Positions 8,223-14,159 of a DNA stretch of 64,000 nt are shown one piece after another. The DNA lies in the NCBI RefSeq assembly GCF_013402875.1, contig NZ_CP058579.1:2914001-2978000 (forward strand). The letters are read 5' to 3'. The DNA comes from Halorarum salinum. GTDB taxonomy: Archaea; Halobacteriota; Halobacteria; Halobacteriales; Haloferacaceae. Each line of letters starts with the position of its first letter. Positions within the stretch are counted from its first letter, which is position 1. The translations under genes and the position numbers were made by a program. Below the pieces are notes generated by a model. The model ran no database searches and was not told the DNA's origin. It was given only the letters and a program-made list of their open reading frames with translations.

Positions 8223-9545
8223 CTACAGCGGCTTCCCCATCGTCCCCGTCAGCACGTCGTCGGGGCCGAGTTCCTCGTCGGCGTCCCAGCTCTGCTCGCC
8301 CGGCGTCTCGTGGTTCAGTTCGAGCACCGTCAGCCCCTTCCCGATGTCCGACCCGACGGTGTACCGACGGGGGCCGGCGGTCGGGAGGTCCACGGCCGCC
8401 CAGTAGGCCGTTCCGGGGGCGGCGAACCCGGCGAGGTGTCGGGGGTCGCCTGGGTCCTCGATGTCGTAGGCGTGGATCCCGCCCTGGTAGAACGACGCGA
8501 ACACCTTCGAGTCGGTCACGTCGAAGTTGTGGCTCGTGCGGAGCGCGTCCGCGGGGCGGTCGGGCGCGGGGATGTATCCGACGTGCCCCTCGTGGGGATC
8601 GCCCGGTTCCGAGTCGGTCGACAGGTCGCCGGTGTCGAAGATCCGGATTCCGCCGTGGTCGCCCGGGACTACCGCGTCCTCGTACGGGCCCGGGAACGTC
8701 TCCGCGCCCACGAGGGTGTACTCCCCGTCCGGCGTCGGCCGGACGTAGTGGGCGTTCGTCTCGTGGCCCCCGAGGTAGCGCTCGTACTGCTCGACGGCGT
8801 CCTCCGGTCGCTCGCCGGCGTCGTCGGCCGCGCCGAAGTGGGCCACCGCGCGCGGGTCCGTCGGGTCGGAGACGTCCGCGACGACGACGCCCGCGTCCCA
8901 GAAGCACATGTACGCGAGGTCGTCCTGGACGTAGATGTCGTGGATCGGGTTGACCCCCGCGTCGGCCATGTCGGGATGGCGGTCGCGCAACATCCACGCA
9001 CCCCCCGATCCTCGTTCGTCACCCTCGAGGCTCACGGGGTTCTCGGGGTCGGAGACGTCCACGATCACCATTCTGGCGTACGCGAAGCTGTCGTTGATAC
9101 AGAGGTACGCGTAGTCGTCCTCGAGATAGCAGTTGTGGACGCCGCTCGCGGCGTCGTAGAACGAGAGTTCGACCGGGACCGCGGGGTCGCTCACGTCGAA
9201 GAACGTCACCCCGCCGGCGCTCCCATCGTCCGCGAGGCCGGCGACGTCGCCGGCGACCTTGACGTCCTTGTTGTCGTCGCCGTGGCCCGGCGCCGTCCCG
9301 CCGAGCAACGGGGCGGTCGGATCGGAGAGGTCGACCGTGGCGATGGACGCGCCGTTGGCGGTGTACGCCCAGTCGTCCTGCACGACGACCTCCTGTGCGC
9401 CCGCGTCGAGTGCCTCGCCGGCGAGTTCGTAGTTCCAGGTCGATTCGCCCGCGACGCTCCCGCTGGCGGCGGTCGCGCCCGCGAGCGCGACGCCGGATGC
9501 CTTCAGGAACGTACGCCTGTCGAAGTGTCTTGAGTGCTCAGTCAT
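8223..9545 (-). CDS. Tat-exported LVIVD-repeat beta-propeller protein
   Basis: The 440-residue protein starts with a clear Tat signal (DRRTFLKASGVALAGATAA, residues 9-27). It has no lipobox, so it is probably released or held by other contacts. The mature part is built of LVIVD repeats. Each has a strand pair, an aromatic-Tyr step and the turn VSDPxxP, visible as VDLSDPTAP, FDVSDPAVP, VDVSDPENP and ADVSDPTDP, with later degenerate copies. Such repeats are predicted to form a beta-propeller on the cell surface; partners are unknown. Its ATG overlaps the stop of the upstream protease by four bases (ATGA), so it is the third gene of an export operon. Confidence 0.87.
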   Translation of the reverse strand: MTEHSRHFDRRTFLKASGVALAGATAASGSVAGESTWNYELAGEALDAGAQEVVVQDDWAYTANGASIATVDLSDPTAPLLGGTAPGHGDDNKDVKVAGDVAGLADDGSAGGVTFFDVSDPAVPVELSFYDAASGVHNCYLEDDYAYLCINDSFAYARMVIVDVSDPENPVSLEGDERGSGGAWMLRDRHPDMADAGVNPIHDIYVQDDLAYMCFWDAGVVVADVSDPTDPRAVAHFGAADDAGERPEDAVEQYERYLGGHETNAHYVRPTPDGEYTLVGAETFPGPYEDAVVPGDHGGIRIFDTGDLSTDSEPGDPHEGHVGYIPAPDRPADALRTSHNFDVTDSKVFASFYQGGIHAYDIEDPGDPRHLAGFAAPGTAYWAAVDLPTAGPRRYTVGSDIGKGLTVLELNHETPGEQSWDADEELGPDDVLTGTMGKPL

Positions 9546-11353
9546 GATTCAGTGTCCGTGAGTTCGACTTCGTCGAAGTCGGCGAATTCGCCCCGTTCGG
9601 CCCGCCGGACCGCGGCCTCCGCGTTCACGAAGCCCGCGCCGACGTTCCAGGGGGTGTACGATCCGTGGACGGCCTCGGCCGTCGCCTCGAGGACGTTGAT
9701 CACGTCCACGGGCGACCACTCGCGACCGTTCATCCTCGCGGCGTCTATCAGCAGGGTGGCGACGCCCGCGGTCACCGGCGTCGCCATCGACGTGCCGGTC
9801 ATCGGCGTGTAGTAGGGCTCCTCGTCGGGTTCGAGTGCGTCCAGCGGGTCGGTCGGTCCGACCGTGGACACCAACGAGTTGCCGGGCGTCCCGACGGCCG
9901 GCCGGTACACCCCGACCGGCCGGAACTGCTCGGGTTCGCCCCTGATCTGCTCGAAGCCCTCGTAGTCGATCTCGTAGGTGACGGCGACGTTCGCGGCGGG
10001 TTCGAGCTCGATCCAGTAGGTCTCGCCCCCGGTGACGTCGGTCGTCAGCGTGTAGTGCTGGTAGACCGGCTCCTCGCCCATCTTGCCCACCTCGGTGCCG
10101 TCCCGGCTGCCCTCGTGGACGGTCACCGTGATCTGCTCGCCGTCGGGGGTGAGATCGAGCGTCAGCGCCAGGACGTCGGCCCCGTTCGGGGCCTCCCAGG
10201 CGTGGTAGTCGCTCCCCGTCCCGGAGGGTCCGAGTTCGCCGTCCCACGTCCCGGAGTCGAGGGTGCGCTCTTCGTTGGTCATCGCCGCGTGGAACCGGCC
10301 GAGGTTTCCCAGCGCCGTCCGGCGGTCGTAGTTGGTCTCGCGGTCCTCGTCGGGGGTGCGGCCGCGCGAGGAGAACTCCGTCACCTCCCGGTCGTCGTCC
10401 GTCGCGGCGACGCAGAGCACGTGGGGCGCCTTCGCGAACCGGTTGAGCGTGTCGACGGCCGGGCCGTCGTTGCCCGCGGCGAACGCGACGACCATCCCGC
10501 GGCGGTACGCCTCCCAGGTGGCCACGTTCACCGGGTCGTCGGGGTTGTACCGGACGTCCCGGGCGACCCCGTAGGAGTTCGAGACCACGTCCGGGTCGAA
10601 GTCCACGTCGGGGTCGTCGGCACGCGCGAGGACGTGGTCCCACGCGCCGACGACGTACGGCAGGTACTGGGTGGCGTTCGTCGAGTACACCGACAGGCGC
10701 GCGCCGGGGGCCATCCCGCGGTACCGGCCGTCGCTCGCGCCCCCGTCGCCGGCGATGGTCCCCGAGACGTGGGTCCCGTGACCCAGGTCGTCCGTGTCGG
10801 CGTCGGCTCCGAGGTCCACCCAGTCCGCGTCCGGACTCCCGAGCGGGTCGTCGACCCACTGCCAGTTCGACTCGATCCGCCCCTCGAAGTCCGGGTGCGG
10901 TCCGCTGAACCCGCTGTCGATGACGGCCACGTCCACGCCCGATCCGTCGTAGCCGAGGTCGCTGGCGGCATCGACCCCCACCAGGCCGCGCGCGTCGTCG
11001 TCGTAGTACTCCAGTTCGACCGCCTTCCGGACCCGCCGGACGCCGTCCCAGCCCGCGACCGTCCGAACCTGGCCGCTCGTCAGGGCCGTGTAGGCCATCG
11101 ACAGCATCCGATACTCGTAGATCCCCTCCCGGAGGTCGAGGTCCCCGGACAGCCGGGCGACCGACTCGTCGTCGGCGAAGACGACGATCACCTCGTGGAG
11201 CGCGTCCGAAGCCGAGAGGTCGAGCCGGTCGTCCACGGTCCCGGCGGCCCTCGCCGTGTCCGCGGCGAGCGGCAGGGCCGCCGTGGCACCGAGCGCGCCA
11301 CCCGCTTTCAGCACCGTGCGTCTGTCGTATCGCCTGCGCGGCTCGTCAGTCAT
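9542..11353 (-). CDS. Tat-exported S8 subtilisin-family serine protease with internal beta domain
   Basis: The 603-residue enzyme has a Tat signal (DRRTVLKAGGALGATAA, from residue 10) and a short prodomain of inhibitor type (about 45-120). The catalytic domain has Asp146 in AVIDSGFSGPHPDFE, His192 in GHGTHVSGT, oxyanion Asn295 in AAGNDG and Ser522 in TGTSMATP. The distance from Asn295 to Ser522 is about 227 residues, well above the roughly 65 of subtilisin. The extra part (about 335-470) reads as a beta-rich domain resembling a pre-peptidase C-terminal domain (GETYWIELEPAANVAVTYEI). No PKD or other C-terminal domain follows. It lies between two LVIVD propeller genes in one operon, which suggests joint action outside the cell. 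Confidence 0.9.
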   Translation of the reverse strand: MTDEPRRRYDRRTVLKAGGALGATAALPLAADTARAAGTVDDRLDLSASDALHEVIVVFADDESVARLSGDLDLREGIYEYRMLSMAYTALTSGQVRTVAGWDGVRRVRKAVELEYYDDDARGLVGVDAASDLGYDGSGVDVAVIDSGFSGPHPDFEGRIESNWQWVDDPLGSPDADWVDLGADADTDDLGHGTHVSGTIAGDGGASDGRYRGMAPGARLSVYSTNATQYLPYVVGAWDHVLARADDPDVDFDPDVVSNSYGVARDVRYNPDDPVNVATWEAYRRGMVVAFAAGNDGPAVDTLNRFAKAPHVLCVAATDDDREVTEFSSRGRTPDEDRETNYDRRTALGNLGRFHAAMTNEERTLDSGTWDGELGPSGTGSDYHAWEAPNGADVLALTLDLTPDGEQITVTVHEGSRDGTEVGKMGEEPVYQHYTLTTDVTGGETYWIELEPAANVAVTYEIDYEGFEQIRGEPEQFRPVGVYRPAVGTPGNSLVSTVGPTDPLDALEPDEEPYYTPMTGTSMATPVTAGVATLLIDAARMNGREWSPVDVINVLEATAEAVHGSYTPWNVGAGFVNAEAAVRRAERGEFADFDEVELTDTES

Positions 11354-11374
11354 GGCGGGCGGAGGAAACCGGCC

Positions 11375-12988
11375 TCATTCGTCGACCCTCTCGAGCACGT
11401 CGCCGACGCGGTCGCTGTCGCGGGTGAGCAGGCCGCCGAGCCCCGCCGCACCCGCCGCCAGTCCGAGCCTGCTCTTGAGGTCGTCGCCGCTGCTGTCGGG
11501 CTTGAACCGGAGCGCGTAGACGCCTGTGTTGGCGTCCGAGACGTAGGTGACGCCGTTCTGCGCGACGGCCGCCCACGTGAACGGCGCGGCGTGGTTCAGC
11601 CCCTCCATCTTCGACTCCTCGGGGACGGCCTCGGCCGCCTGGAAGTAGCCCTTCTCGGCCAGCGTCCAGTCGCCCTCGTCGATCCGCAGGAACCGCGTGC
11701 CGCCGTGGTAGTGGCCGAGGTGGACGTACCCCCGCTCGGTGACGTTGAAGTTGTGTGGGCTGAGGGTGAAGTTCTCGAACGTCACGTTCGACTTCCACTC
11801 CCACTCGTCGAGTTTCTCGACGTTGTCCGAGCCGTCGAACCCGTCATCGAGTCCGTCGGCGTCCAGCAGGTACACCTTCCCGCTGGAGCCGTCCTCCTGA
11901 CCGGAGATCTCCTGACCGGCGACGACGACCCGCTTGCCGTCGACGTACGTCGGGGTCGGCTCGGCGTAGTGGGCCGCGCCCATCGAGAAGTGCCCCAGGG
12001 GCTGGATGTCCGTCGGGTCCGAGAGGTCAAGCGCCCACAGTCCCTGGTCCCAGTAGGAGAGGTAGCCGACGGGCCCGTCCAGCCGCTCGTCGTCCTGAAC
12101 CGTGATGTCGTGAATGTAGTTCGTACCGCCGGTCCCCAGGTCGGGGAGGTTGCCGTCGACGTTCCACTCGTTGACGAGCACGAGCGCCCCCGTCGTTCGG
12201 TCGAACCGGAACACGTAGAGGGCGGCCGACCCGTCGTTTAGGTCCTTCACGCCGAACACGTACTCCGCGCCGCCGATGCGGTGGTACCAGGAGTTGTGCG
12301 GCCCGGTGTCCCAGCCGTCGTACGTGCCCACGACGAGGGGATTCTCCGGGTCGGAGACGTCGACCGCCTGCAAGGCGGCCGCGCTCACCGTGGTGGCGTC
12401 GCCGTCGTCGGCGTCGGCGGTCGGGTCGGTCTCGCCGAACAGCGCGGTGTAGGGCTGCTTGCTGATGAAGACGTAGTCGCCGTCGTCGCTGACCTTCACG
12501 TCCATCACGGCCGAGGCGTCGTTGTCGTTCCGGAGGAACGAGACGACCTCGAGTTCGGCCTCACGGAGTTCGCTGGCGTTCTCGGCGTCCTCGAACGCCG
12601 AGACGTCGAGGATCGCGAGGCCGCGGTTGTTCGTCGGGTCCTTCGAGGAGAAGACCGAGACGTAGGCGTGGTCGCCCTCGACCCGGATCTCCGAGAGCGC
12701 GCCGTAGTGCGGGCTGGTGGCGCGCCCGCTCTCGCTCGAGGGGCCCACGTCGCCGACGCTGTGGTAGTCGAGCAGGTCGACGTTGTTCGTCGCGCCGTGG
12801 ATCCCCCCGTCCGCGTGGCCGTGGTCGCCGTCGTCGGTCGACTCGCCCGACGAACCGTACTCGTGGGCGCTCGCGGTACCGGTGGTCGCGGCGAGCGCCA
12901 CCCCGACCGTGCCCGCTCGAAGCAGGTCGCGTCGCGCGATCCCCGGTTCGGTCGGTCGGCCGTCGCCCCTCGCGGCGGGTTCACGCAT
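11375..12988 (-). CDS. Tat-exported LVIVD-repeat beta-propeller protein, first gene of the export operon
   Basis: The 537-residue protein has a Tat signal (IARRDLLRAGTVGVALAATT, from residue 17) ending near ASAHEYG. Repeats with VSDPxxP turns (VDVSDPENP, LDLSDPTDI) and HDITVQDDE/HNFNV steps mark the same LVIVD propeller family as the gene at 8223. A Gly/Ala/Leu segment near the C-terminus could be a weak anchor. I choose the ATG at 12988, because it places the twin arginine about 20 residues from the start; an upstream in-frame start would add 23 mostly Arg/Gly residues. The protease follows after 21 bases. Confidence 0.86.
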   Translation of the reverse strand: MREPAARGDGRPTEPGIARRDLLRAGTVGVALAATTGTASAHEYGSSGESTDDGDHGHADGGIHGATNNVDLLDYHSVGDVGPSSESGRATSPHYGALSEIRVEGDHAYVSVFSSKDPTNNRGLAILDVSAFEDAENASELREAELEVVSFLRNDNDASAVMDVKVSDDGDYVFISKQPYTALFGETDPTADADDGDATTVSAAALQAVDVSDPENPLVVGTYDGWDTGPHNSWYHRIGGAEYVFGVKDLNDGSAALYVFRFDRTTGALVLVNEWNVDGNLPDLGTGGTNYIHDITVQDDERLDGPVGYLSYWDQGLWALDLSDPTDIQPLGHFSMGAAHYAEPTPTYVDGKRVVVAGQEISGQEDGSSGKVYLLDADGLDDGFDGSDNVEKLDEWEWKSNVTFENFTLSPHNFNVTERGYVHLGHYHGGTRFLRIDEGDWTLAEKGYFQAAEAVPEESKMEGLNHAAPFTWAAVAQNGVTYVSDANTGVYALRFKPDSSGDDLKSRLGLAAGAAGLGGLLTRDSDRVGDVLERVDE

Positions 12989-13361
12989 CGATCGTCCCCC
13001 CCTGCGTTCGCCCCGCGGTTCGCCACGACGGGTCGTCCCCCGCGGAGCGACGGCCACGTGTACGCGGTGCTCGACGTGCCCTCGACCGCCCCGTCGCTAC
13101 CGGACGAGACCGACCGGACGCCCGCCGGCGTACGGGACTCCGGTCCACGATTCCCCCCTGTTCCGGGACCGTCCGTCCATCGGTACCGGGAGTGTTCCCC
13201 AGCATCGACCGCTGATCCCGCTCCAAGGACTTAAAAACAACTGAAGAAAAGTTAAATGTAATTCCACCGTCCGTCTCAGTTTCGGTCGTCGCGACCGCCG
13301 ACGATCGGCCGGCGCCGATCGGTGGTCACACCTTTGTCGGTCCCCTCGAACCGGTCGAACC
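12989..13361. other. 373-base intergenic region between the export operon and the FAD protein
   Basis: No gene is supported here. The notable parts are an A/T-rich island at about 13226-13262 and an 8-bp inverted repeat at 13302-13321. The island contains a TATA-like element on the minus strand, which would give the export operon a leader of roughly 200 bases if used. Short open frames crossing the region have shadow-like Arg/Ser composition. Confidence 0.5.
13302..13321. repeat. 8-bp perfect inverted repeat upstream of the FAD protein gene
   Basis: CGATCGGC and GCCGATCG are separated by four bases (CGGC). The element ends about eight bases before a weak TATA-like CACCTTTGTC and about 40 bases before the ATG at 13362, a position suitable for an operator. 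No regulator is known. Confidence 0.4.
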
Positions 13362-14159
13362 ATGACGGACGTCACCACCGACGATGCCACCGCCGACTGC
13401 GATGTTCTCGTCGCCGGCGGCGGGGTCTCCGGGCTCACCGCGGCGACGTACACGGCCCGTGCCGGCCTTCGAACGCTCGTCGTCTCGGGCGAAGAGTCGA
13501 TCCTCCGGCGCAACGCTCACCTGGAGAACTTCCCCGGCTTCCCGGCCGGCGTGAACCCGCGGCTGTTCGCGGACATGCTCCGCGACCAGGCCGGGCGAAA
13601 CGGCGCCGAACTGGTCGGGGGGACCGTCGAGGACCTCGCGGGCACGGAAGGCGAGTTCGTGGCCACCCTGTCCGACGGGAGGACGGTCACCGCGGCGCGG
13701 GTCGTGGCGGCGTCGTGGTCGGACGCGGACTACCTGGACGGACTCGGCGTCGAGATACGGGACGCCGGGAGCAAGCGCTACGTCGCCGTCGACGGCGTCG
13801 GCCGGACGTCGGTCGCGGGCGTCTACGTCGCGGGGCGACTCGCGGAGAAGTACCACCAGGCGGTCGTCGCGGCCGGACACGGCGCCGAGGCGGGGATCAC
13901 GCTCGTCCACGACGCGGAGGTTCCCTACTACCACGACTGGGTCGCCCCCGAAGGGTACTTCACGGACCGCGGGCGGGAGGTGCCGCCGGGCTGTGAGGAG
14001 ATCGACGCCGGCGAGCGGGACCACAGGGAGGCCGAGTCCCGCGAGACGATGCGCGAGTACTTCGCGGAACCGCACGACCAGCGCCAGCGCACCCACCCCA
14101 GTCTGGTCGACGACGAGCGGGGGCGCGTGGACGCCGACTGGGAGGGGGACGACGGCTGA
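13362..14159 (+). CDS. FAD-dependent oxidoreductase, thioredoxin-reductase-like
   Basis: The 265-residue protein has a dinucleotide-binding motif VLVAGGGVSGLTAA (about 15-28) and NFPGFPAGV, both typical of the FAD part of thioredoxin reductase-like enzymes. A C-terminal FAD-contact motif GVYVAGRLAEKYHQAVVAAG is also present. It is shorter than thioredoxin reductase and lacks the CxxC active site and an obvious NADPH domain. The middle is replaced by a short segment. The last 50 residues are charged and hydrophilic. It is probably a flavoprotein with unknown redox partner. The ATG at 13362 is well supported by the Rossmann strand that follows. Confidence 0.8.
   Translation: MTDVTTDDATADCDVLVAGGGVSGLTAATYTARAGLRTLVVSGEESILRRNAHLENFPGFPAGVNPRLFADMLRDQAGRNGAELVGGTVEDLAGTEGEFVATLSDGRTVTAARVVAASWSDADYLDGLGVEIRDAGSKRYVAVDGVGRTSVAGVYVAGRLAEKYHQAVVAAGHGAEAGITLVHDAEVPYYHDWVAPEGYFTDRGREVPPGCEEIDAGERDHREAESRETMREYFAEPHDQRQRTHPSLVDDERGRVDADWEGDDG

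Follow-up and report, generated by a model that had tools for sequence, protein, structure and literature searches.

The phosphotriesterase of Sphingobium sp. TCM1 contains a binuclear metal centre in its propeller, and to our knowledge no protease partner of this enzyme is known. SBP56, SELENBP1, and methanethiol oxidase are seven-bladed propellers with a cavity metal site composed of His, Asp, and Glu (PMC10362175), through which SELENBP1, a copper-dependent thiol oxidase, binds copper (PMC10362175). The LVIVD repeat is known from surface proteins of archaea and bacteria (PMC2447325), and the available part of the LVIVD literature assigns it no enzymatic role. The haloarchaeal halolysins, such as SptA, are exported S8 proteases; the halolysin abstracts consulted name no propeller partner. 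Clusters of the S8-LVIVD or S8-M14-LVIVD type were not found described in the open-licence literature searched.

The window analysed here, meaning the whole stretch of 64,000 nucleotides, corresponds to C1:2914001-2978000 of a 4.26 Mb genome (G+C 70% in the first 40 kb), whose relatives mark it as haloarchaeal. It contains three genes, denoted A, S, and C, all of which are located on the minus strand and read from right to left (Table 1). An earlier note on this DNA had described them as a Tat export operon with an S8 protease between two LVIVD propellers, and the coordinates of the open reading frames agreed with its 21-base gap between A and S and four-base overlap between S and C. The family assignments also held: the LVIVD model (PF08309) scored 26.4 bits for A, each repeat singly falling below the cut-off, and 53.8 bits for C versus a cut-off of 20.2, and Peptidase_S8 (PF00082) scored 111.9 bits for S versus 21.8. 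The RR motif is present in all three proteins and is invariant in the alignments of the A and C families. The TAT_signal model of Pfam was passed by S only (24.6 bits); C was just under the cut-off (20.7 versus 22.7 bits), and A gave no match to this model. A and C share their repeat type with the LVIVD repeat proteins (PF08309) and the choice-of-anchor B proteins (TIGR04312). Membership of TIGR04312 was rejected, C scoring 46.6 bits versus a curated cut-off of 100 and A giving no match.

S retains the catalytic triad and the oxyanion Asn; an insert of about 110-130 aa separates this Asn from the catalytic Ser. This insert gave no Pfam match; it also occurs in most A-linked S homologues and is absent from the forms of 470-490 aa. 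S resembles the halolysins as an exported S8 protease and differs from SptA in the insert. The C-terminal extension of SptA holds two Cys, according to the available part of its report (PMC3158780), and S was rejected as a halolysin of this kind because Cys314 is the only Cys in the whole protein. At the C-terminus of the A family, a hydrophobic stretch rich in Gly precedes residues rich in Arg and Tyr, and this ending resembles a membrane or sorting tail. The flanking genes seem to have no connection with the three: on one side are genes for a GYD-domain protein and for siderophore-type ABC transport, and on the other are genes for a flavoprotein and a DFP (CoaBC-like) protein.

Table 1. Positions of the features in the window and of the related loci in other contexts.
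Feature	Position	Strand	Remarks
A, LVIVD seven-bladed propeller, 537 aa	11375..12988	-	RR motif, His-rich N-terminus after signal, Gly-rich hydrophobic C-terminal tail
S, S8 (subtilase) serine protease, 603 aa	9542..11353	-	Tat signal; Asp146/His192/Asn295/Ser522
C, LVIVD seven-bladed propeller, 440 aa	8223..9545	-	RR motif
AT-rich segment separating A from the divergent gene at 13362	13210..13270	-	Possible promoter region, by eye only
C-terminal tail of A	11375-11500		
Blade-start codons of A	H94 12707-12709, D163 12500-12502, H231 12296-12298, H293 12110-12112, H340 11969-11971, E360 11909-11911, H412 11753-11755, W472 11573-11575	-	
Blade-start codons of C	E52 9390-9392, D94 9264-9266, H137 9135-9137, H202 8940-8942, H266 8748-8750, E282 8700-8702, H339 8529-8531, W382 8400-8402	-	
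Loci with the A3 module on S8, M14, and LVIVD proteins of one cluster	L098:10423-18316, L099:1093-14007, L086:1931-11872, L105:2092-12153		
Lone large S8 of the window genome	L186:4246-7059		937 aa, A3-type module
A-family gene downstream of P-type ATPase	L132:6252-10955, L133:8898-13614, L144:8094-12807		G022, G045, G116
Tandem LVIVD genes with multicopper oxidase	L127:6501-11995, L128:7468-13208, L129:7284-12983, L130:6018-12140		G072, G107, G171, G078
C-like LVIVD gene between ROK-family and NifU-like genes	L150:8239-11156, L151:7774-10707		L151, window genome

The AlphaFold2 models of A (pLDDT 77.7, pTM 0.80) and C (pLDDT 83.1, pTM 0.82) both read as seven-bladed propellers. When the alignments were compared with the strand limits of the models, invariant or near-invariant residues were located close to where the inner strand of each blade begins. 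The residues invariant among the 23 homologues of A were H94, D163, H231, H293, H340, E360, and H412, and those invariant among the 25 homologues of C were D94, H137, H202, H266, E282, and H339; W472 of A and E52 and W382 of C, invariant or nearly so, also belong to the blade-start sets. The four His listed for C are the only invariant His of that family, and all belong to the set. The family profiles of A and C align with each other at E 1.2e-35, and their blade-start sets correspond from blade 2 on. An invariant His/Asp/Glu set of this kind is typical of a metal site and suggests one in both proteins, which most likely hold one or two metal ions at these residues. A conserved metal site may be structural or serve for storage, and catalysis is a prediction.

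The haloalkylphosphorus hydrolase/phosphotriesterase of TCM1 (PDB 5hrm and 5ioj) is the nearest solved sequence relative of C. Foldseek returned 5hrm as the best match of both models, at 3.3e-14 for A (next match, 8.6e-10) and 2.8e-13 for C (next protein, 6.5e-12), the margin of C over ordinary WD40 propellers being modest. The profile of the C family also found 5hrm by sequence (E 1.9e-10). Under four MAFFT settings with the whole C family, H171, H230, H302, and H388 of 5hrm fell on H137, H202, H266, and H339 of C, respectively. The phosphotriesterase sequence used for MAFFT and hhalign was a fragment, residues 80-430, taken from the profile alignment. Like C, the TCM1 enzyme thus has four His in the register of the invariant His. 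It differs from A and C in being bacterial, in an identity of about 15%, and in the inexact alignment of the Glu and the first-blade Asp: E320 of 5hrm was one residue from E282 of C, and Asp94 of C was likewise one residue off. For A, the His register was not obtained when the protein was aligned directly with the phosphotriesterase, and it is therefore assigned to A with C as the intermediate. Poor registers were obtained when the single phosphotriesterase sequence was aligned with the A and C profiles by hhalign. The VIA-align rows shown for A and C contained generic propellers only, mostly WD40; the absence of 5hrm and 2ECE among them excludes nothing.

We surveyed 195 haloarchaeal genomes of the same order for the conservation of the linkage. 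Of these, 39 had genes for P0002-type S8 proteases (S-like), 19 had A, and 121 had C-like genes. S was located within 1 kb of A on the same strand in 10 of the 19 A-bearing genomes, whereas 0.024 would be expected under random placement. When the distance was extended to 5 kb, a P0002-type S8 gene accompanied A in 13 of these genomes and was missing in the other 6. The neighbourhood is not unique to the window genome; such uniqueness was part of the refuting condition named in the earlier note, and it did not arise. Genomes of six families have S adjoining A or C, the gaps being -8, -4, or short positive values, and the overlap between S and the propeller gene is 8 bases in L084, L090, L092, and L103 and 4 bases in L106. 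An S8 gene is part of the clusters that hold the closest C orthologues (>500 bits; G078, G082, and G190) and of the one that holds a more distant orthologue in G127. The gene maps usually read S and then the propeller: S-A-C in G078, S-A-C-C in MAG QS_5_70_17, and S-A in most others. The order A-S was found in G050 and in the window, and the window order A-S-C is an unusual form because most loci read S then propeller. Further cases are a Haladaptatus salinisoli plasmid (NZ_CP085329.1; S8 then A), a plasmid of H. pallidirubidus (NZ_CP085302.1; S8-S8-M14-A), Halomarina halobia, and Halegenticoccus soli. Genes were called locus by locus with a custom codon model, which failed at some lower-GC loci and gave no call for L138. 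A functional link between the propellers and the protease is supported by these arrangements.

The long forms of A (about 650-700 aa) often have a large S8 protease (~900 aa) and an M14 zinc carboxypeptidase (~1100 aa) as neighbours. A module of ~120 aa near the C-terminus is common to M14, the large S8, and the long forms of both A and S (alignment A3; for most of them, E between 1e-29 and 1e-50), with the consensus FTGGQTNxVD..VRDxVPxEWTV..YFAEAP..GxYxFGPVE... The module gave no Pfam match above the cut-off and no credible relative in the PDB. In 12 whole genomes it was found at 28 places, mostly on the protein classes mentioned above, plus one fragment. Three places outside the clusters were inspected and comprised one large S8, one M14, and one protein that is metallophosphoesterase-like by inspection of its sequence. 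Neither A nor S of the window carries the module. The window genome encodes a lone large S8 with an A3-type module at C1:661 kb, about 2.26 Mb from the operon, and the sole match of the M14 query in this genome was the module of that protein. These clusters join secreted S8 and M14 proteases, propellers, and the unnamed module in one system, an arrangement that could account for the site of action of these proteins.

In the tree of A, the protein of the window groups with that of L084 (98/98) inside a clade of short A (100/100). Most partners in this clade are S proteins of 500-600 aa that fall outside the clade of the window S. In the tree of S, the protein of the window groups (100/98) with the 740-aa S of G082, G108, and G194, all from clusters that contain long A and M14. 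Judged from the two trees, the window operon pairs S of one cluster type with A of another, the partners having been exchanged. Such swapping argues against an obligate complex of S and A; as the two come from different cluster types, they would share one process without a fixed interface.

We consider the three genes to be a small form of a gene cluster that recurs in haloarchaea and encodes extracellular hydrolases exported by the Tat route, in which A and C would be metal-dependent enzymes co-exported with proteases, and we place the probability of this reading at roughly 0.55. In the proposed mechanism, S is the S8 endopeptidase, as its motifs show. A and C, modelled as propellers with invariant His/Asp/Glu near the blade starts, have these residues at positions homologous to the His set of the TCM1 phosphotriesterase (C by alignment and A by way of C) and would work alongside the protease as metal-dependent enzymes. 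They are probably hydrolases, with peptides, esters, or phosphoesters that proteolysis releases or exposes as their substrates. That S8, M14, and a phosphoesterase-like protein carry one shared module points to hydrolysis. Partner exchange suggests that A and C are coupled to S by co-expression and shared localisation and not by one fixed interface. A wider proposal is tentative, and we hold it to be possible but rather doubtful: the LVIVD propellers would be exported metal-dependent hydrolases with a site like that of the TCM1 phosphotriesterase, forming a large family that has gone unrecognised. Haloarchaea would then employ them alongside S8 and M14 peptidases for degradation outside the cell, and the new C-terminal module would mark the components of this system for a common location. 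New here are the predicted metal-site residues of LVIVD propellers, the S8-S8-M14-LVIVD clusters, the unnamed C-terminal module, and the partner exchange. LVIVD proteins are common, as the C-like genes counted above illustrate, and are named for their repeat alone; prediction of a metal site at the level of residues therefore makes their function directly testable.

The metal-dependent hydrolase is favoured over a copper reading, to which we nevertheless give real weight even though it is unlikely. A and C would then be copper proteins, either oxidases or copper carriers, akin to SBP56 and methanethiol oxidase, and adjacency to the protease would reflect a common regulon or another use of copper and not hydrolysis. 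Many homologues of C match SBP56 weakly (17 of 25 family members; best, 2.5e-5), but the window C scores 11.2 bits versus a cut-off of 34 for this family (PF05694), and A has no match. The cavity His, Asp, and Glu with which SELENBP1 binds copper (PMC10362175) offer a precedent, and A has a His-rich segment after its signal; the HH and HxxH motifs of SELENBP1 are, however, absent from the window A and C, as judged from their His positions. Relatives also adjoin metal-linked genes, which speaks for a metal site under the favoured reading too. In G022, G045, and G116, a gene for a copper-type heavy-metal P-type ATPase is followed immediately downstream by an A-family gene, and three tandem C-like LVIVD genes adjoin a Tat-type multicopper oxidase in G072, G107, G171, and G078. 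Against this stand the origin of the CopA linkage from one genus and the phosphotriesterase as the best fold match.

Somewhat less likely again is that the propellers have no catalytic role and serve S as a chaperone, inhibitor, or substrate adapter in a stoichiometric complex, where S, folding in the cytoplasm, could need silencing before export. A need to control S is plausible because SptA is able to self-activate inside the cell, according to the available part of its report (PMC6085418), and the overlap of S and propeller genes in several lineages (-8 and -4 bases) would suit such a complex. Simple binding, however, needs no invariant His/Asp/Glu set, and A also occurs at loci that lack a P0002-type S8 gene and next to a CopA-type ATPase. 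In addition, A and S of the window derive from different cluster types, and no fixed interface of the pair appears to be kept. The earlier note had proposed a secreted or surface complex in which the propellers act as adapter, inhibitor, or anchor for the protease. The functional link in this proposal is supported by the recurrent linkage, the overlaps of 4-8 bases, and the module common to long A, S8, and M14, whereas a dedicated complex is no longer the first choice, in view of the invariant residue set, the occurrence of A without an S8 neighbour, and the swapped partners.

Chance proximity of unrelated exported proteins is very improbable and was rejected: many genomes do not show the linkage, the same-genus genome G104 and the other sampled genomes of the window's family lack a match to A, and most sampled genomes of that family lack a match to the window S, but the linkage counts far exceed expectation (10 of 19 versus 0.024) and the adjacency is conserved in several families and several gene orders, with a common C-terminal module.

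A widespread C-like LVIVD gene is located between ROK-family and NifU-like genes, in L150 and in the window genome (L151; Table 1), and genes of like size flank the C-like gene in several other families (maps among L148-L156).
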